From a virus, in IMG/VR virus record IMGVR_UViG_3300032213_001637, positions 1-64,000 of that record: 64,000 nt of DNA. One strand, written 5' to 3'. The translations under genes were made by a program, and so were the position numbers. Each line of letters starts with the position of its first letter. Positions within the stretch are counted from its first letter, which is position 1. The notes under the pieces were generated by a model. The model worked only from the letters and a program-made list of their open reading frames with translations, searched no databases and was not told the origin of the DNA. Shown in pieces: positions 1,341 through 26,661 of the stretch.

Positions 1341-2360
1341 ATGAAAGTCGCTACTATCGAAGAAATTGCAGAGGTTATTCCACATCCTAACGCTGATGCT
1401 CTTGAACTCGCCAAGATCAAGGGATGGCAGGTATGTATCAAGAAAGGTGAATTCAAGAAAGGAGATCTGTGCATCTACATTTGTGTTGACAGCGTTCTTG
1501 AAGACAAGTCGGTCTACGAGTTCTTGCGTAACAAGAACTTTCGTATTCGTACCGTCAAACTTCGTGGTCAAATCAGTCAGGGAATTGCTTTTCCAATGTC
1601 AATGTTCAAGAGTCTTGGACATGATACCGTTGTGTTTACTGAACCAAATGTGGTGGGAAGTGACGTTAGTCATTATGTTTATGCCAAACACTATGAGAAG
1701 CCTCTTTCCGCACAACTTTCTGGACAAGTATATGGTCTGATGCCTTCATATCTTCGTAAGACGGATGAAGACAACATTAAGAACAATCCAGAGATCCTTC
1801 AGGAACTTGCTGGTAAGTCATATTACATCACCATGAAGGTGGATGGAAGTAGCGGAACTTACTTCTACAAGGATGATGTTGGATTTGGCGTTTGTAGTCG
1901 TAACTACCAACTTAAGGAAGACGATAAGAATAGTTTTTGGGTTGTTGCTAGAAAGTATGATCTTGAGAACAAGTTGAAGAATGACGGTCGTAATCTTGCC
2001 ATTCAAGGTGAGGTTTACGGACCTGGCATTCAAGGAAATCTACTTGGTGTTAAGGATATTCAGTTTCGTGCATTCAATCTATTTGACATTGACAACTACA
2101 AGTATCTTGATCGTAATGAGCTTTTGAGATTTTGTGATGTGAATGATATTCCTGTTGTTGAAACCATTGACGATGGTACTTCTTTCAACAAGACTCTTCG
2201 AGAATTGCAGGAGTTTGCCAACAATCTCGTTTATGAGAATAATAATCTTGCAGAAGGTATTGTAGTTCGTCCTACTGTAGAGACGTATAGTGAGACTCTA
2301 AAGGGACGATTGTCAGGTAAGATTATTAGTGAGCCATTCGAACTTAAATACAACGATTAA
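1341..2360 (+). CDS. RNA ligase, OB-fold-plus-ligase type
   Basis: An ATP-dependent RNA ligase of 339 residues. Residues 1 to about 110 look like an N-terminal OB-like domain (H-P-N-A-D motif near 15-19), as in the Deinococcus DraRnl group. The nucleotidyltransferase domain follows. Motif I is K-V-D-G-S-S with the predicted adenylated lysine at K166, motif IIIa is F-R-A-F-N-L-F near 242-248, motif IV is E-G-I-V-V-R-P near 305-311, and a motif V-like F-E-L-K-Y lies near the C terminus. The enzyme seals 3'-OH/5'-phosphate nicks in RNA. A 5'-kinase (3207) and a cyclic-phosphate-processing protein (3662) lie just beyond one convergent gene, so a tRNA-repair role is likely. Confidence 0.88.
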   Translation: MKVATIEEIAEVIPHPNADALELAKIKGWQVCIKKGEFKKGDLCIYICVDSVLEDKSVYEFLRNKNFRIRTVKLRGQISQGIAFPMSMFKSLGHDTVVFTEPNVVGSDVSHYVYAKHYEKPLSAQLSGQVYGLMPSYLRKTDEDNIKNNPEILQELAGKSYYITMKVDGSSGTYFYKDDVGFGVCSRNYQLKEDDKNSFWVVARKYDLENKLKNDGRNLAIQGEVYGPGIQGNLLGVKDIQFRAFNLFDIDNYKYLDRNELLRFCDVNDIPVVETIDDGTSFNKTLRELQEFANNLVYENNNLAEGIVVRPTVETYSETLKGRLSGKIISEPFELKYND

Positions 2361-3145
2361 CTATAGTGTGGTGGTTCTTTTTCTTGACTGCCACTTTCTT
2401 TTTCAACAACAATACTAGGTTTTCCATTAAAATTTCGACCTATTTTTCCGTATAACTTTTCTGCGGTAGGTATTAATTCACTTGGAGTACGTATTGGGAT
2501 AGTATCAATCAATTCATATTTATCATACCACCAACCACCTTCCTCATATCCTCCTAGTGCTCTTGTAATATCATATAAACTGACGTATAACGGATAATTC
2601 AATTCATTGTGAGAATCATTACGATGATGTATCAAACTATACAATTTATGATACGTATCGTGTATTTTTTTAACATTTTCAATATCCTGATCTGTAATAT
2701 TTAGGTTTTTAAGTTCATCGGGGATATTCTTATGAGAAGGATCGGTTTTTGCCAAATCAATAAAACTAATTAACCAATGGTGCATGGACCAATAATTTTC
2801 GTATTCTGCAAATAGACGGTCTATGTAAGACTGAAACTTTTGATAAAACTCTGGCATTTTATCTTTTATGTACTTATAAAGAACCCCGGTACGTTTTTTA
2901 TCATCTTGATCTGAGTGTTCATATGGAACATCAACTATGTGATCAATATGTGCGGTTTCTTTAAAATCTTCATCATCGTTGTGTTTGGGTCTATAATTTG
3001 GATAACCCAATCCATGAGGAAAATTCGTTCCTCCAATTTTCATTCCCGGTTCCAAATCGCTGCCTGGTCTAACCCAATCGTCTCCTTCATCACCGTTTGG
3101 TTTTTTAGCTTCAAATAAATGTTTAAAAAAGTCTTTATAGTCCAT
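2357..3145 (-). CDS. Putative packaged head protein with YKDFF leader
   Basis: A 262-residue protein of unknown function. It opens with M-D-Y-K-D-F-F-K-H-L-F-E-A-K. This resembles the N-terminal capsid-targeting peptides of T4 internal proteins, and L-F-E fits the (L/I)-x-E cleavage rule. A W-V-R-P-G-S-D-L-E-P-G-M-K linker follows. Residues 80-200 are helical and rich in His, Tyr and Trp. The gene is isolated and leftward between rightward metabolic genes and has its own ATATTTATC motif 3 nt before the ATG. Its stop overlaps that of the RNA ligase by 4 bp. Packaging is inferred from leader and promoter only. Confidence 0.6.
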   Translation of the reverse strand: MDYKDFFKHLFEAKKPNGDEGDDWVRPGSDLEPGMKIGGTNFPHGLGYPNYRPKHNDDEDFKETAHIDHIVDVPYEHSDQDDKKRTGVLYKYIKDKMPEFYQKFQSYIDRLFAEYENYWSMHHWLISFIDLAKTDPSHKNIPDELKNLNITDQDIENVKKIHDTYHKLYSLIHHRNDSHNELNYPLYVSLYDITRALGGYEEGGWWYDKYELIDTIPIRTPSELIPTAEKLYGKIGRNFNGKPSIVVEKESGSQEKEPPHYS

Positions 3146-19772: not shown

Positions 19773-20050
19773 CCCTTTAATATCTGTTTTATTTGAGTAT
19801 TAGTAACTTCGTTGTGACTTAATACTCCCAATTTACCCTTCAACATTTGTAATGCTGCTTTAGGATTCATTCTTCCACAGTTGAATCCTAATATGCTATG
19901 TGATCTACAAAAAGATTCCAACTCGTCAATATCTGCCTGTGGAAACTCCTGAACAGGAGGAAGTGTTGTATCTTCACCTTGTTGTTTTCTACGAACCAAA
20001 CTTTGAAAGATTGGGTCGTTCATAGATGTCGAAAATTCAGGAAAGTTCAT
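19769..20050 (-). CDS. Small protein, unknown, coupled to lysozyme-like gene
   Basis: A 93-residue protein with C-R and C-G pairs near 48 and 58 and a helical C terminus. Its start overlaps the stop of the lysozyme-like gene (ATGA), so the two are translationally coupled and probably act in the same particle or step. Its stop shares TTAA with the fibre-like gene. Confidence 0.5.
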   Translation of the reverse strand: MNFPEFSTSMNDPIFQSLVRRKQQGEDTTLPPVQEFPQADIDELESFCRSHSILGFNCGRMNPKAALQMLKGKLGVLSHNEVTNTQIKQILKG

Positions 20051-22104
20051 ATCGCTTCGTTTTTTGTCTTACTAATGGAAGCGATTGACGAATCTGCTCC
20101 TTTAAGAAGTTCAGCGTTACGTTTCATACGAACAAATACACCACTACCTTTACCTTCGCTTGAACGATACTCATCATCATCCAAATAAACTTTTGCAACT
20201 TGATTCCAATCTGGATTTGGAGAATTAACCAACTTATCAGTTGTTGGATGTTTTTCACCTCTGAAAATACTATCAACCAACATTGTCTGTACCAACGCTG
20301 GAAACTTATTGAAGTTTTTATACTTCTTTTTTGCAATTTCTACTTTTTCTTCATAATCGTATTTAAACAACATAGAAATTTGATCGTTTGATAATAATAC
20401 TTCGGAGAAAGTTTGTGCCGTTGCAGGACCACCTTCCACATATCTTATCAACTGTTCATTTGTTTTTGGATTGTCATTAGGCATTGATGCAATACGACGT
20501 ATATTGTTTCGACTCCCAGCACTTCCATCCAAATGATGCCCCCCGCCAATATGTGGTTTATCTCCAATTAAATAATAGTTTCTAACAGCACCTTCATTCT
20601 TCAATGTATATTTTTGTGATGGAGTTGATGTTTTAATTTCATCAACATTAACATAGATTTTACTACCTTGTTTTTTGATAGCTGTCACTGGCGATTTTCC
20701 TTTTGTTGCAGCATCTACATTAGGGGTACCAAACGCAGCCGCAGCTGCTAATGCAACTGTAGATAACGTTTTTGCTCCCCATGATTCGTTCATAATCTCG
20801 TCAATTCGTATTATACCACGATCATCTGAAACTAAAAGAATATTCTTTTCTTTAATAAACTCACGTATTGTGTTTTTTGTTTTTGGAGTCACTGGTGGTG
20901 TGCCAGTACTTTTATTTCCATCTACATAAAATCCATAACTTTTATCTTCACCTGAGTTTTGTAAATAGATGGTACTATCATTTGGAAGATATTTCAAACG
21001 TACATAACCCTTTCTAAATGCAGATGTATATGGTTCCTTTTCATTAAATCCCATTATCTTATCACTATTATCTTTTACCCACTGTTTGTGATCTCTAACC
21101 ATAATAAGGTCACCACTTGGTGAAATCCAATATGCAATTTCTAAAATGACAGGACGTGAAGCGTTTCTTAACCGTTGTTGTTGATTTCTTTTATAAAATT
21201 GTGGGTCACTGGGTAAATCATTTTCGGTGATGTTATGAAGTGTCATTCCAGTAACTTGATGTATCAAATCTTTAACACACTCAACGTTTTTATCAGCCAA
21301 ACAGTCATCCATTTGTTGACGTTGTTCATCTGACGCTTTTCCATAAAACATCATCAATTCATGAAATCCAACCATGCCTCGATAATCCTCTTCGTTAATG
21401 TTTTCATCAAACTTACGTCCATCTGAACCGAAATGATCCAAGTGATGATAAACATCATCCAAATATTCACCTGCTAAATTCAATTTGGCTTTAACCCAAT
21501 CTTCCAATTTAGTCTCAGGTTTCAACATAGATTGAAGTTCTTTGGCATCATTGTTGATTTGTTTCAACGCACCCATAGCCATATTACTATTGCCAATATC
21601 TTCAATCAACTCTGCAACTAGATTTTTCAGTACCTCATTGTACAGTTCAACTTCACTCACAGAACTACTCTTGGTACGTTTTCCGGCCTGTCTAGCTCTA
21701 CGACCTGCACAATGTGCTCGTTGACTAAATCCTTTGGGATTTGAACAATCAATGCCCTGTTTGTATTTTCTACTCCACTTTTCGTTGATTTGATCTTCTG
21801 GTGTTCCCGCATCTTTTTCGTCACGATAAAACTTCAAATAATCACGAACTGTGGCAACATAATCACATGCGTGATTGAGCTTTGCTTCCACCCAATCCTC
21901 AAGATCTTCAGATGGATTGAACATCTTCTGTAAATCTTCACTGTACTTGATAAGTTTGGTTACATCGCTCATAGCCATTTCAGCGTTTTCTAACTTAACC
22001 ATCAATTTATCGGGATGTGGATTGTCATGATTAATAGGATGATCACTGTCACCCAATCCAGTTGACATACTTTTTTTCCATTGATCTTTTGTAAGTTCGT
22101 TCAT
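20047..22104 (-). CDS. Multidomain virion-type protein with lysozyme-like C terminus
   Basis: A 685-residue protein. Residues about 40-93 and 173-225 are two copies of a helical repeat, each with L-E-D-W-V-x-A-K-L-N, known to me from uncharacterised marine-phage proteins. Between them lies a basic I-D-C-S-N-P-K-G-F-S-Q-R-A-H-C-A-G motif (118-134). Residues about 318-395 hold an E-I-A-Y-W-I-S-P-S-G module. Residues about 500-665 resemble T4/pesticin-type lysozymes: E-G (504-505) as catalytic-Glu candidate, I-G-G-G-H (519-523), F-P-A-L-V-Q (601-606), and R-M-K-R-N-A-E. Histidine 518 occupies the place of T4 lysozyme Thr26. It could cut peptidoglycan during entry. Confidence 0.7.
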   Translation of the reverse strand: MNELTKDQWKKSMSTGLGDSDHPINHDNPHPDKLMVKLENAEMAMSDVTKLIKYSEDLQKMFNPSEDLEDWVEAKLNHACDYVATVRDYLKFYRDEKDAGTPEDQINEKWSRKYKQGIDCSNPKGFSQRAHCAGRRARQAGKRTKSSSVSEVELYNEVLKNLVAELIEDIGNSNMAMGALKQINNDAKELQSMLKPETKLEDWVKAKLNLAGEYLDDVYHHLDHFGSDGRKFDENINEEDYRGMVGFHELMMFYGKASDEQRQQMDDCLADKNVECVKDLIHQVTGMTLHNITENDLPSDPQFYKRNQQQRLRNASRPVILEIAYWISPSGDLIMVRDHKQWVKDNSDKIMGFNEKEPYTSAFRKGYVRLKYLPNDSTIYLQNSGEDKSYGFYVDGNKSTGTPPVTPKTKNTIREFIKEKNILLVSDDRGIIRIDEIMNESWGAKTLSTVALAAAAAFGTPNVDAATKGKSPVTAIKKQGSKIYVNVDEIKTSTPSQKYTLKNEGAVRNYYLIGDKPHIGGGHHLDGSAGSRNNIRRIASMPNDNPKTNEQLIRYVEGGPATAQTFSEVLLSNDQISMLFKYDYEEKVEIAKKKYKNFNKFPALVQTMLVDSIFRGEKHPTTDKLVNSPNPDWNQVAKVYLDDDEYRSSEGKGSGVFVRMKRNAELLKGADSSIASISKTKNEAI

Positions 22105-22123: not shown

Positions 22124-22552
22124 TCAATCTAATGATCCTTCTAGTATTCGTTTTTTTATATTGGTGGTACTGATACCTTTTGTATACGATAAATAAACCA
22201 ACACAATATCTTGTTCATCTAACCAGTCTTGTGTAAAATTCATTTGAGCAAAATAATCTTTTTTTGCCCAATCATCTCCAATTGCAACAATGTTAGGATG
22301 AACGGATAATATTGAAGGTTTACTATCTTCTCCACCAATATTAGGAATCACTTCGTCAACATATCTAACACCCTCTAAAGAACGTTTTCGTTCATCATAT
22401 GTCATTATAGGGTATTTGTTTTTATATTTAAAAATGAATTCATCCGTATTTAGAGAAACGATGACTCTATCTGAAATTTTTGAACACTGTTTCAAAAAGT
22501 TCATATGACCATAGTGTAATAAGTCAAACGTACCGCCGGTATACAGTATCAT
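22124..22552 (-). CDS. Glycerol-3-phosphate cytidylyltransferase-like enzyme
   Basis: A 142-residue cytidylyltransferase-fold enzyme close to TagD/HldE-C in size. G-G-T-F-D-L-L-H-Y-G-H near residues 6-16 contains the H-x-G-H CTP-binding motif. The R-x-x-S-L (R-K-R-S-L-E-G-V-R) segment near 55-63 and I-S-T-T-N-I-K-K-R-I near 126-135 match the family's C-terminal nucleotide-binding motif. It joins NTP to a phosphorylated small molecule such as glycerol phosphate or a sugar phosphate. It overlaps the NTase gene by 4 bp at the end of the ArdC operon, oddly far from the glycan cluster. Confidence 0.85.
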   Translation of the reverse strand: MILYTGGTFDLLHYGHMNFLKQCSKISDRVIVSLNTDEFIFKYKNKYPIMTYDERKRSLEGVRYVDEVIPNIGGEDSKPSILSVHPNIVAIGDDWAKKDYFAQMNFTQDWLDEQDIVLVYLSYTKGISTTNIKKRILEGSLD

Positions 22553-23631
22553 AACGTGGATATATAGTTTTTAACAAAATCAATCACTTCTTCTTCTGGA
22601 GTTGTGTCTAGATTATCACCATACTGTTTGTTCAAAACGTTTTTAATATCGCCTATAACCTTACCAGGCTTCAAATTGAACGTATTCATGATCCATTCAC
22701 CAGTATACTTTTCAGTACTAACTATGTCAGCGTCTAACTTTTGTTTTTCTTGTTCTACTTTGTCATACAAAGATGGAAACAATGACTTAAAGAAAAAGTC
22801 ATTGTCACCCACATTACGACGTTGACCACTCTGTAACAATTGATCACTTATATACTGTGCGGATTGACGTTCACTACGCATCTTTCTACGATCACCACGA
22901 TTTAATTCTCCACTCAATTGACGAACGTCAAACAATGGAGAAGTTTTGATATACTCAACGATGTCATCTTCGCTCTTAATATTGGAGAAATTGGTATCTA
23001 CATTACGAAAACCAAGAATCTTTTGAGCGTCACGAAGGTTTTTAGTGATAAAAATAGATCTATTTTGACCTTTCTTATCAACAAAGATCTTAAAGAAACC
23101 GTCACTACCATACTTAAATCCGAGTTTTCTAGATATAACGCCAACAATACCTGAAAAGTCGTTGTATGCTAGATAATCTTGTTTGTTACGTGCATCTTCT
23201 TCATCTTTTGCTATAATAAAGTCGATGTGTACTTGTTTATCTAATTTATCCGGACGATACAAAATAGAAAATATGTTACCATTGGTAGTTGCGTACATTT
23301 GTTTTGGTTGATATACGTTACCATTTGATGTTACTATCACAGTTGGTTCGGTGTTTCTGACAATGTTTGAACCAATTATATTTGTTACAATATCTTTTGT
23401 AGATTGTCCAGATGGTGGTACAACCACAATATCAATATCGCCATGATCTTGACGACTTGACAACTTGGTTGTGTTATTGAAGCTAGAAAACTTCTTGGCG
23501 AGTTTCTTTTTCAACTCACCAAATACGCCATGCATTTCTTCGGTTGTTACTCTGTTAGATAAAGATCCAAAGAGTTTTTTAACATTTTCCTCCGAAAGAA
23601 TTTTTCTTGCTATGTCCGATAGTTTGATCAT
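22549..23631 (-). CDS. CCA-adding-like nucleotidyltransferase
   Basis: A 360-residue protein. Residues 1-15 form an I-A-R-K-I-L-S-E leader similar to that at 58-300, with a fitting L-S-E cleavage tripeptide. H-G-D-I-D-I-V-V-V-P near 63-72 is the paired-Asp active site of polymerase-beta nucleotidyltransferases, and H-I-D-F-I-I-A near 134-140 supplies the third Asp. The C terminus (K-P-G-K-V-I-G-D-I-K-N-V-L then T-P-E-E-E) resembles the head/tail of CCA-adding enzymes. It may act on RNA 3' ends. Coupled by overlap to both neighbours. Confidence 0.72.
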   Translation of the reverse strand: MIKLSDIARKILSEENVKKLFGSLSNRVTTEEMHGVFGELKKKLAKKFSSFNNTTKLSSRQDHGDIDIVVVPPSGQSTKDIVTNIIGSNIVRNTEPTVIVTSNGNVYQPKQMYATTNGNIFSILYRPDKLDKQVHIDFIIAKDEEDARNKQDYLAYNDFSGIVGVISRKLGFKYGSDGFFKIFVDKKGQNRSIFITKNLRDAQKILGFRNVDTNFSNIKSEDDIVEYIKTSPLFDVRQLSGELNRGDRRKMRSERQSAQYISDQLLQSGQRRNVGDNDFFFKSLFPSLYDKVEQEKQKLDADIVSTEKYTGEWIMNTFNLKPGKVIGDIKNVLNKQYGDNLDTTPEEEVIDFVKNYISTL

Positions 23632-24548
23632 GTGTCTTTCAATATGTCTTTAAGTATATCAGTTAACTTGATGGGACTTGATTGTTCAACTGATTCATTC
23701 TTTTTCTTTTGCCAAGAAACTGGACTTGGACCTTTTTTCTTACTGGTTCCCTTTTTATTACACTGTGATGGTGTTGGACGGCATGCTGGATACTTGGCTC
23801 TTTTCTCACCAGCTTGACGACCACATGCTTTACATGTTTTACGACTAGTTTTTTTATTTTTACGACAAGTATTACAATCTACCCAACCTTTGCTTTTTCC
23901 TTTTCCACCTTGTCTTGCAAACCATCCATGTAGACCTTGTTTCTTTTCTTTACTAAAGTCTTTTTTCTCTTCTAACTCAACAGATTCTTCTTTTTTCTCC
24001 CAAATTTCACCTGTTCTGCATCGAACCATCGCACCCGATTTGTAAGCAGATGTTTTAGGACCATACACACTATCTGCTTTTTTATGACATCTATCTTTAT
24101 TCTTTTTACGTTCATCTAAAGATGGTTCATCGATATCAAGATCGATACCTGACACCTTACTTGGACCAACTGGTTCACTATCTTTGACTTGTCCAACAGG
24201 TGTAGTTCCTATCTTACCTACCACATTGTTTCCCGGTGTACAAGATATTTCACTTCCCAATCTGGATTTATCATTAAAACTCTGTTTAGGATCACCAAAT
24301 CCAGAATTGGCTTGTGGTTGGAATTCCTTGGCAAGTCCAGCAGCAACCAACTTGGTATAATATTCTGGATCTTCTGTCAAATGATCCAATGCAATTTCGG
24401 TTGCAATCTTTTCATTATTCGTATGTTCCATTTCTACTTGAACACCAATTGCAAGTTGTGCGGGGTTAACAGTTGAAGACGCAGTTGCGTCACCAACTCC
24501 ACCTTTTAGTTGTCCATCTTCATTGATAAAAAAGTCTTTGTATTTCAT
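23628..24548 (-). CDS. YKDFF-tagged DUF5661/DUF5872-like basic protein
   Basis: A 306-residue protein. It opens M-K-Y-K-D-F-F-I-N-E-D; I-N-E fits the prohead-protease rule. Residues about 33-70 (Q-V-E-M-E-H-T-N-N then D-H-L-T-E-D-P-E-Y-Y) match the DUF5661 pattern. The C-terminal half carries D-R-C-H-K-K-A-D-S-V-Y near 151-161, W-F-A-R-Q-G-G-K-G-K-S-K-G-W-V-D-C near 208-224, three C-x2-C-type pairs and Y-P-A-C-R-P-T, as in DUF5872-like proteins of marine phages and algal giant viruses. Basic, cysteine-rich composition suits DNA packing or an injected protein. Confidence 0.7.
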   Translation of the reverse strand: MKYKDFFINEDGQLKGGVGDATASSTVNPAQLAIGVQVEMEHTNNEKIATEIALDHLTEDPEYYTKLVAAGLAKEFQPQANSGFGDPKQSFNDKSRLGSEISCTPGNNVVGKIGTTPVGQVKDSEPVGPSKVSGIDLDIDEPSLDERKKNKDRCHKKADSVYGPKTSAYKSGAMVRCRTGEIWEKKEESVELEEKKDFSKEKKQGLHGWFARQGGKGKSKGWVDCNTCRKNKKTSRKTCKACGRQAGEKRAKYPACRPTPSQCNKKGTSKKKGPSPVSWQKKKNESVEQSSPIKLTDILKDILKDT

Positions 24549-24742
24549 GGTCGGTTATTACCTTTATGTTTATGTTGTGACGCTTCTTGTTCTGCTTGTT
24601 GCATTTTACTATAACCATTTGAAGGATATGCATAATCGATTTGCCATCTACGACCTTTCATCGCAGGATGGCCAATCAATGGATCTTGAAGTTTCTTCTG
24701 AGATCCAATTATATACCAATCCCCCGGTGGTTTAGAGTCCAT
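24545..24742 (-). CDS. Small protein within the ArdC operon, unknown
   Basis: A 65-residue protein: D-W-Y-I-I-G-S-Q at the front, then a R-R-W-Q-I-D-Y-A-Y-P-S segment and a Gln/His-rich tail. No family recognised. The ATG at 24742 is preferred over one at 24778 because it overlaps the ArdC-like gene by only 11 bp; its own end overlaps the next start by 4 bp. Confidence 0.5.
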   Translation of the reverse strand: MDSKPPGDWYIIGSQKKLQDPLIGHPAMKGRRWQIDYAYPSNGYSKMQQAEQEASQHKHKGNNRP

Positions 24743-26648
24743 AATTACGTCTCTTTTTCTTTTCTTCCCACTTTTCATCCATCAACTTCTTAATAGCTTC
24801 AAAGTTACCATATTTTTGTTCAACACGTTCACGTGTTTTAGATGCATTAGCCATATCACGTATGATACTTCCAATCGTCTCCTTTTGAGTTTCGTTCATT
24901 GTAGGTTGTTCTTTCTGTTTTTCTTCTGCAATTTCATCAATACCTAAAATAATAAATCTAGCAACTGTGTGTATCACAGTTAAATTTTTCTGTATTGCAT
25001 CTTTATTGCCTTGCCATAATGCAATATATGTTGCACCATGTTTTGTATCCAAATTATAATGATTTGTTACAGTGTATGCAACTGCTTCTGCTTGAAGTTC
25101 AGCTTCTGCTCTGGTTAATCTCATTGTTTCATCATTTCCATAGAACACTGAACTATCTTTGAAATGCAATAGTGAATGTGCAATTTCATGAACCAACGTA
25201 GACAAACGATTTATTCCGGAAACATTACTTGTCAAGTTAATATGGTCACCGCTTGCCCATCCCATTTCTCCACCTTTTGCGTCACTATGAGTAACCTTGA
25301 TTTGTTTATCCTTACAAAACTTTAAAAGATACTCATATATTTTATCTGCTGTTTCACTTGGTGTATTTTGATCGTGCCATACTGGAGCTTCTGGAATTTT
25401 TCCTTTTTCAGCAGCGTTGGTGTCTGAAATATCATATACGATGCCGATTCTAAATTTTGTTATTTGATTTTTTGAAATTTCATCATCTACTCCTTCATCA
25501 TCTCCGGGTTTAAAACGATCACCTGGCTTACTTTCACTATCGTCTTTCTTGTTTTTAATAGGTACCCATATTCTAATATGAGTAGCAGTTTTTAAATTTA
25601 CGGTTACGCCAAGTTCTCTCCATTTTGATTTACCAGCAACCTGTGTTGCGTTTGGTTTTTGTGCCCAAATCAATAAACTGTTAGTAAAACTATACTTTTT
25701 AAATTTCTTTTTAAAATCTAAAAACGATTTCAATTTGTCGCTAACTTTAACACCTTCAACGGCATCAGCCAATCCGTCAATGATTGTTTTAACTTTTTCA
25801 GCGAGTTCTCTTCTTTTATTAAAATCGTCTCTCTCCACAAACACTTTGAGATTTTCAAAGGTGTGTAACAACTCTTCAAATTGTATTGGACCGGACTTTG
25901 GAGGTGTCCATGTTTTAGTCTTCCAATTATATGAATAACCAGCATTTATTTTATCAATCGCTTTCATATAATATCTTAAATCTTCATCAGTAGTATATGG
26001 TTTTTCCCATCCTATATCTGGATTCCATGTAAAGCCTAAAGATTTAATACCATCCTTGGATTTGTAGGTTTCATTACCAGCCGCTCTAGAACTGGCAAGA
26101 GTATTTTTGGGATCGTTATCAGGAGATTCTGGTTTATCTGGATCATATGGTTTGTATAAATCAGAAACCACAATAATGTACTGTTTGCCAGTTTCTTCGT
26201 CATCATACCGATGAAGTTCTAACTTTTCATTGATATCACCATCAACCGATTCGTTCATCATATCAGTAGTCATTCCTAACATACCAAGATCACGATAATA
26301 ACGTGGGTTTTCTTTCAAATTTTGAACAACATTTTGTTTAGCAACCATCTTGTTCTTGAAAATCTGTTTCTTGAGTTCATAGTCCATTCCCTGAATGATA
26401 TCATCAGGGGTGACCTTGGTTTTGATATCCTCAATATCTTTTTTGTACTGTTCTGGATCAATTTTTGATTTAATGTCTTGATCGACTGGTTGTACAACAT
26501 TGACATTTGAACTGTCAGCAGGAAAAGATCCGGGGTTCTGAACGACATCAGGTGATGAATATGTCCCAGATTGACCAGATAAGGGTGATTGACCCCCTAC
26601 CGCAATCTGACTCATGTTATATTCTTTGAAGAAGTCTTTATATGTCAT
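24732..26648 (-). CDS. ArdC-like antirestriction metalloprotease with capsid-type leader
   Basis: A 638-residue protein. The leader M-T-Y-K-D-F-F-K-E matches two other proteins here. Residues about 86-125 include E-N-P-R-Y-Y-R-D-L, DUF5661-like. Residues about 305-365 match the ssDNA-binding N domain of ArdC: Y-S-F-T-N-S-L-L-I-W-A-Q, A-T-Q-V-A-G-K-S-K-W-R-E-L-G and H-I-R-I-W-V-P-I. Residues about 425-540 are the metallopeptidase, with zinc motif H-E-I-A-H at 487-491 and a downstream acidic helix R-A-E-A-E-L-Q-A-E near 513-521. ArdC shields DNA from restriction. A packaged form could protect the genome at entry. First gene of a five-gene coupled operon. Confidence 0.82.
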   Translation of the reverse strand: MTYKDFFKEYNMSQIAVGGQSPLSGQSGTYSSPDVVQNPGSFPADSSNVNVVQPVDQDIKSKIDPEQYKKDIEDIKTKVTPDDIIQGMDYELKKQIFKNKMVAKQNVVQNLKENPRYYRDLGMLGMTTDMMNESVDGDINEKLELHRYDDEETGKQYIIVVSDLYKPYDPDKPESPDNDPKNTLASSRAAGNETYKSKDGIKSLGFTWNPDIGWEKPYTTDEDLRYYMKAIDKINAGYSYNWKTKTWTPPKSGPIQFEELLHTFENLKVFVERDDFNKRRELAEKVKTIIDGLADAVEGVKVSDKLKSFLDFKKKFKKYSFTNSLLIWAQKPNATQVAGKSKWRELGVTVNLKTATHIRIWVPIKNKKDDSESKPGDRFKPGDDEGVDDEISKNQITKFRIGIVYDISDTNAAEKGKIPEAPVWHDQNTPSETADKIYEYLLKFCKDKQIKVTHSDAKGGEMGWASGDHINLTSNVSGINRLSTLVHEIAHSLLHFKDSSVFYGNDETMRLTRAEAELQAEAVAYTVTNHYNLDTKHGATYIALWQGNKDAIQKNLTVIHTVARFIILGIDEIAEEKQKEQPTMNETQKETIGSIIRDMANASKTRERVEQKYGNFEAIKKLMDEKWEEKKKRRNYGL

Positions 26649-26652
26649 AATC

Positions 26653-26661
26653 TATAAATAT
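26653..26661 (-). promoter_or_regulatory. ATATTTATA start-proximal motif
   Basis: Minus-strand ATATTTATA ends 4 nt before the ATG of the ArdC-like gene and is the only such site for the five-gene operon running to 22124. Confidence 0.5.

Follow-up and report, generated by a model that had tools for sequence, protein, structure and literature searches.

In phage P1, DarA, DarB and DdrB are head-packaged, partly processed defence-against-restriction proteins that are delivered with the DNA. In T4, IPI* (PMC3012670) and Ip2 and Ip3 (PMC12373910) are injected anti-restriction proteins, and in the leader of IPIII residues 4 and 7 serve mainly targeting, residues 8 and 10 processing (PMC9026906). 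The plasmid R388 protein ArdC works once it is made in the recipient, where it can do without its metalloprotease activity (PMC7213743); given that it acts after such expression, pre-packaging of an ArdC by a phage would be a phage innovation. The idea that phages package proteins with ArdC and MPTase domains was published in 2017 (Iyer et al., PMC5512222).

The protein considered here, P0001, is encoded in a window of 64,000 nt, the first part of a 109-kb viral record with 132 proteins that was analysed as a whole (Table 1). The first-pass annotation had drawn its reading frame at 24732-26661; the 24732 end stands, whereas the 5' end does not, the start lying at 26648, 13 nt short of 26661. 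Apart from this coordinate difference, its description of P0001 is right: the ArdC-like ssDNA-binding domain that it recognised is a Pfam ArdC-N (PF08401) match at residues 305-374, the HEIAH metalloprotease motif occupies residues 487-491, and the MTYKDFFKE tag is common to P0001 and two other proteins, P0002 (23628-24548(-)) and P0003 (2357-3145(-)). Orthologues of P0001 are found among viral relatives, and all the close ones keep the N-terminal tag; NCBIfam holds no model for P0001 and its kin.

Table 1. Features of P0001 and of related genes in the window (positions are those of the window; a slash in a sequence marks a predicted cut)
Feature	Position	Strand	Basis or remark
P0001, carrier-ArdC fusion protein	24732..26648	-	ORF, 638 aa, ATG start
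ATATTTATA element, 4 nt before the P0001 ATG (TATTTATA-N4-ATG)	26653..26661	-	orthologue comparison
Leader MTYKDFFKE, residues 1-9, T4 capsid-targeting-like, Glu9 conserved	26622..26648	-	tag comparison
Carrier N-terminal part, residues 1-133	26250..26648	-	without ArdC in L007 and about 14 others
Degenerate DUF5661-like region, residues 79-131	26256..26414	-	hhalign
Predicted prohead-protease site INE141/K, carrier/ArdC boundary	26226..26234	-	hydrophobic-x-E there in 24/24 viral relatives
ArdC module, residues 142-590 (N-terminal strand/helix extension, ArdC-N, zincin)	24879..26225	-	AlphaFold model, PDB match 6SNA
ArdC-N ssDNA-binding domain, residues 305-374	25527..25736	-	Pfam PF08401
HEIAH zinc metalloprotease motif, residues 487-491	25176..25190	-	sequence
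Conserved basic carrier C-terminus, residues 587-638	24735..24890	-	in L007 joined directly to the N-terminal part
Small same-operon protein MDSKPPGDW...DPLIGHPAMKGRRWQIDYAYPS	24545..24742	-	start inferred from relatives
P0002: leader MKYKDFFINE/D, DUF5661, variable basic modules	23628..24548	-	Pfam DUF5661, orthologues
Nucleotidyltransferase-like protein, leader MIKLSDIARKILSE	22549..23631	-	phrog_24943, E 8.5e-9
Mosaic protein; lysozyme domain in the G006 orthologue; TATTTATA before its start	20047..22104	-	
P0003, third tagged protein, MDYKDFFKHLFE/AKK; TATTTATA before its start	2357..3145	-	

The ArdC-N match of P0001 lies just above the curated Pfam cut-off (22.9 against 22.6 bits), the same domain being matched in 5/5 close homologues tested (best E 2.4e-11) and with scores of up to 41.9 bits in stand-alone ArdC relatives. 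Matches to M78-like and phrog_87 metalloproteases span the HEIAH motif; the Pfam MPTase-PolyVal model gives a weak match, solely in one relative (L256). P0001 has the ArdC-N plus MPTase domain content of the polyvalent proteins. In an alignment of 34 homologues, the HExxH residues together with H495, E517 and E521 are invariant (alignment positions 347/348/351/355/377/381, to each of which 140 is added). An AlphaFold model of residues 141-590, built on the 34 viral homologues, has a mean pLDDT of 81. The comparison of a predicted structure with ArdC that the first-pass annotation had proposed came out in its favour: in a Foldseek search, R388 ArdC (6SNA) is the sole PDB match with E < 0.001 (E 9.2e-6, probability 1.00). 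The whole-chain TM is low (0.23/0.35, rmsd 18.4), which we take to mean that the two domains are set at a different angle in the model. A profile search of solved structures with the ArdC profile gave no match, the fold search alone doing so. We infer from these domains a probable ssDNA-binding and anti-restriction role for P0001.

Three of the 132 proteins in the record contain YKDFF, each of them at residues 2-6, and the motif is found at no other place; the pattern [YF]K[DE]F is seen at three N-termini against 0.04 expected. The tag opens P0002 as MKYKDFFINEDG and P0003 as MDYKDFFKHLFEAKK, and it is kept even in a relative whose best aligned segment is just 61% identical. The T4 leaders, read from AF158101, are MKTFKEF in IPI and MKTYQEFIAEA in IPII and IPIII; the resemblance to the IPI type that had been noticed earlier is borne out by a Y/F-K/Q-E/D-F core shared by the P0001 tag with MKTFKEF and MKTYQEFIAE.

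After its tag, P0002 has a clear DUF5661 domain (Pfam PF18905, E 6.6e-12). P0001 gives no Pfam PF18905 match and its profile-profile similarity is weak; the DUF5661-like region that it does have is degenerate (hhalign probability 90.5 against the DUF5661 alignment). DUF5661 occurs in many phage proteins, examples being P0002 itself, L024:3827-5656, L023:4341-5609, L099 and L104; proteins with it include a DUF2213 head-region protein of Vibrio phage VPs20, the product of an S-SRM01 gene between the terminase small subunit and the sheath, and some that are very long (up to 1844 aa). Our literature search returned no paper that names it. The nucleotidyltransferase-like gene with the leader MIKLSDIARKILSE adjoins P0002 and may encode another packaged enzyme. 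A phage protein of 748 aa (L249:3419-5665) joins a leader, MKYSDFYNLKE, to an ArdC module and a weakly glucosaminidase-like C-terminal region, and is possibly an ArdC fused to a cell-wall enzyme.

Profiles made from the first 133 and the last 52 residues of P0001 find, in relatives, a short gene of about 160-220 aa that has no ArdC. About 15 relatives possess this ArdC-less carrier (e.g., L007 of G006, and L037-L061), in the same operon and upstream of the DUF5661 gene; in L007 the N- and C-terminal parts of the carrier meet at ..MMKENNQKEE... In L044 a separate ArdC gene is found in the same operon, just downstream of the DUF5661 gene, and most relatives that keep the carrier are without ArdC. 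Because the same gene occurs without it, ArdC is, as far as comparison of the sequences can tell, a cargo inserted in a separable phage carrier protein. On the carrier tree a single change, weakly supported, explains the ArdC-less state of L007, against two changes on the DUF5661 tree; the cargo may have been lost there or may never have been present. A hydrophobic-x-Glu lies within residues 2-12 in 18/18 carrier orthologues, as opposed to 22% of other genes, and its first residue is L or I in 14 of the 18; the ArdC-bearing group and L007 have F instead, and L060 has V. At the position equivalent to FKE9, most ArdC-less orthologues have L/I-x-E; the P0001 tag ends F-K-E, that is, F-x-E rather than L/I-x-E.

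Against its own reading, the first-pass annotation had pointed out that the tag is without a clear (L/I)-x-E site. Outside the tag P0001 does have such a site, INE/K at residues 139-141, and the objection appears largely removed. A scan of viral contigs with the ArdC alignment yielded 80 loci. In the closest group, most proteins open with a leader that is short and amphipathic and has hydrophobic-x-Glu as its last residues; the first ArdC-module strand comes immediately after it, at junctions such as MKDLLKKLLRE/ALILKKD, MKKLIKKFLYE/ALILKVD, MLKNILNE/ALILKKD and MVHKLFE/YLDLKKD. Behind long unrelated sequence, the junctions are SLNE/ALKLQ and FIKE/ALKLQ, and in the window protein INE141/KLELHR. 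A Glu at -2 and a hydrophobic residue at -4 of the module are present in 24/24 relatives, which form 15 clusters at 60% identity, whereas a Glu occupies any other of 14 upstream positions in at most 5/24. What precedes the site varies between short leaders, the present carrier and 430-600 aa of unrelated sequence. As we set the anchors on the LxLK strand by eye and the 24 relatives are not statistically independent, we give no probability for this pattern; it is the pattern to be expected of a conserved prohead-protease site, although in principle the Glu could instead belong to the fold of the ArdC module and not be cut. By shuffling, an excess of (L/I)-x-E is found in P0002 (p 0.005) and in four relatives (p 0.009-0.04, uncorrected), and none is seen in P0001 (p 0.37), the lysozyme mosaic (p 0.22) or P0003. 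As this excess is patchy, we do not claim polyprotein-like processing throughout the mosaic proteins.

A second shared feature lies before the start codon. In 18/21 carrier orthologues the exact sequence TATTTATA lies no more than 12 nt from the start, against 19/347 background genes, and in most of the orthologues it sits 3-6 nt before the start codon. In the window's record it precedes 11 ORFs, 2-12 nt from the ATG: P0001, four further genes with a tag or leader (one belonging to the tail cluster), one more gene of that cluster, a fibre-like and an IscU-like gene, the lysozyme mosaic and two remaining ORFs. It is thus found on 5/7 leader genes and 6/123 other genes of this record (Fisher p 3e-5), the seven leader genes having been chosen by us earlier, but from the same record. 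This distribution, which extends to genes not obviously of the virion such as the IscU-like one, suggests expression together with virion genes, and the element may be a late promoter. TATTTATA is the T4 late-promoter core TATAAATA read on the opposite strand; no T4-type late promoters of the form TATAAATA were found upstream of these genes. The element leaves almost no space for a leader or ribosome-binding site before the ATG, and the late transcripts of these genes are possibly leaderless.

The protease and head genes of the window's phage were sought in the 109-kb record and not found, and their nature is here judged from the relative G030, which probably has their counterparts. Along 1.3-17.8 kb of the window, 15 genes have counterparts in G030 in a nearly collinear block, with identities of 70% for the UvsW-like helicase and 82% for the IscU-like protein; the sheath is shared in addition (63%). 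It encodes T4-type TerL, portal, S77 protease and Gp23, and proteins of its head cluster start MIKLKDLIDE and MIKLKDLILE, resembling the MIKLSDIARKILSE of P0001's neighbour. Within the closer ArdC group, in which the leader type prevails, 5/25 records have an S77 prohead protease, all five very large (163-362 kb); of the other ArdC records, 0/23 have one. Record length confounds this comparison, and in the leader group one record of 200 kb gave no S77 match. Small proteins near these S77 proteases carry leaders in the style of those on ArdC, namely MKRLIKHLLREA and MKEYIKKLLREG in G061 and MKSFIKKLLREN in G055. In the cultivated Flavobacterium phage immuto, a DUF5661 gene (MKKSQLRQIIKEAL) lies 5-13 kb upstream of the terminase, portal, protease and capsid genes, and a gene between portal and protease starts MKKSQIVKAVQEVLEE.

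Some features of the assemblies deserve mention. The contig of G005, a relative that also has this gene, opens within a collagen-like fibre gene of very great length, its end being a 4390-aa ORF with GTSG/collagen-like repeats (L227:2656-15828); we suspect that repeats of this kind break the assemblies of the lineage and probably leave the head genes unlinked. The tail sheath ORF of the window's record (L009:17042-19879, record 99441-102278) has 945 aa against about 1100 aa in relatives, perhaps through a frameshift or assembly error. Between about 43000 and 63300, some 20 kb are, by eye, dense with glycosyltransferase-, nucleotide-sugar- and methyltransferase-like genes.

We propose that P0001 is a late-expressed, head-packaged precursor. 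Its carrier, comprising the leader MTYKDFFKE, a linker and the degenerate DUF5661-like region, would bring it into the prohead core in the manner of T4 capsid-targeting sequences; a T4-type prohead protease would then cut after Glu, most likely at INE141/K and perhaps also at FKE9/Y, and the freed ArdC module would stay in the head with the DNA. At infection, the module would be ejected with the genome, bind it or its exposed single-stranded parts, and so block host (probably type I) restriction ahead of any phage gene expression. Packaging and processing we consider likely; the full chain, from late expression through packaging, cleavage and ejection to anti-restriction, we favour with moderate confidence. 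A broader reading is that many large T4-related phages use a family of such carriers, with interchangeable short leaders and DUF5661-like docking regions, as a modular delivery system that would load exchangeable cargos (ArdC, nucleotidyltransferase, lysozyme and small basic modules) into the prohead core, where the protease would free them at hydrophobic-x-Glu junctions ahead of their ejection into the host. This we offer tentatively, as a possibility that we would not yet expect to hold.

Other accounts share parts of this evidence. The invariance of HExxH and the candidate zinc ligands across the 34 homologues suggests selection on the protease, and R388 ArdC needs no protease activity for anti-restriction (PMC7213743); the two together leave room for another or an additional target, and host proteins have been proposed as targets of such zincins in a survey of jumbo phages (PMC7824862). 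P0001 might thus be packaged and ejected with a role other than anti-restriction, for instance covering single-stranded or damaged genome ends or cutting a host protein as a zincin. However, the ssDNA-binding ArdC-N domain is conserved too, scoring above its cut-off, and anti-restriction is the demonstrated function of ArdC, so that such a substitute role seems unlikely to us. The zincin could also act at an earlier stage, cutting itself or the scaffold in the prohead as a head-maturation factor with no role in the new host: the polyvalent-protein account notes that most ArdC-N polyvalent proteins carry MPTase, and proposes autoproteolysis before packaging for those of the P1 DdrB type (PMC5512222). 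Since most carrier-bearing relatives lack ArdC, and S77 proteases are encoded by relatives themselves, the zincin is unlikely to be essential for maturation, and we hold this account to be very improbable.

A simpler possibility is that P0001 is an ordinary intracellular ArdC made after entry, its tag and Glu site serving another purpose such as binding a phage protein or folding. R388 ArdC does work when expressed in the recipient (PMC7213743), the tag of P0001 is without the textbook L/I-x-E, and the protease gene is absent from the window's record. Yet leaderless ArdC proteins, those of the plasmid relatives compared and of Gordonia phage, begin directly at ArdC-N; homology ends at the Glu site regardless of what stands before the module; the carrier exists without ArdC and has the same kind of site; and the TATTTATA start element is common to leader and tail-region genes. 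On this balance we hold the intracellular account to be quite improbable, and return to the packaged, processed precursor as the preferred reading.

As far as our literature searches show, a signature made of leader and boundary site, and an arrangement of carrier and cargo in T4-type phages, are new: the accessible parts of two phage surveys that mention ArdC and the prohead do not describe a carrier-ArdC protein with this leader and boundary site. The conserved leader and site of head-protease type on ArdC in 15 divergent viral clusters offer a concrete, testable answer to the question of when phage ArdC acts, namely that it is preloaded in the head. More generally, a leader, a hydrophobic-x-Glu at a domain edge and an S77 protease in the genome would together make a sequence rule for predicting ejected proteins, of use for uncultured T4-like phages, where virion proteomics is impossible.

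Compared with the known systems, P0001 shares with R388/pSa ArdC (6SNA) the succession of ArdC-N and a C-terminal zincin with an intact HExxH, but differs in that a phage carrier surrounds the module, a conserved hydrophobic-x-Glu stands just before it, and residues 141-300 add a strand/helix unit at its N-terminus. Like the T4 internal proteins, which bear anti-restriction cargo, it has a Glu at the processing position of the leader; those proteins are about 95-193 aa long, whereas the cargo of P0001 is a 450-aa plasmid-type ArdC, and the most promising cut site is at residue 141, where carrier and cargo meet, unlike in the T4 proteins with their gp21 processing. We know of no sequence relation between the T4 internal proteins and ArdC. 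The likeness to P1 DarA, DarB and DdrB is drawn from their description in the literature alone. The polyvalent proteins resemble P0001 in combining ArdC-N with MPTase and in being predicted to be packaged and delivered with DNA; the accessible part of that account gives neither a capsid-targeting leader nor a prohead-protease boundary site (PMC5512222), and P0001, whose carrier is separable, would differ further as part of a T4-type head system. Taken with its relatives, P0001 is thus a well-supported candidate for a variant of phage-injected anti-restriction.
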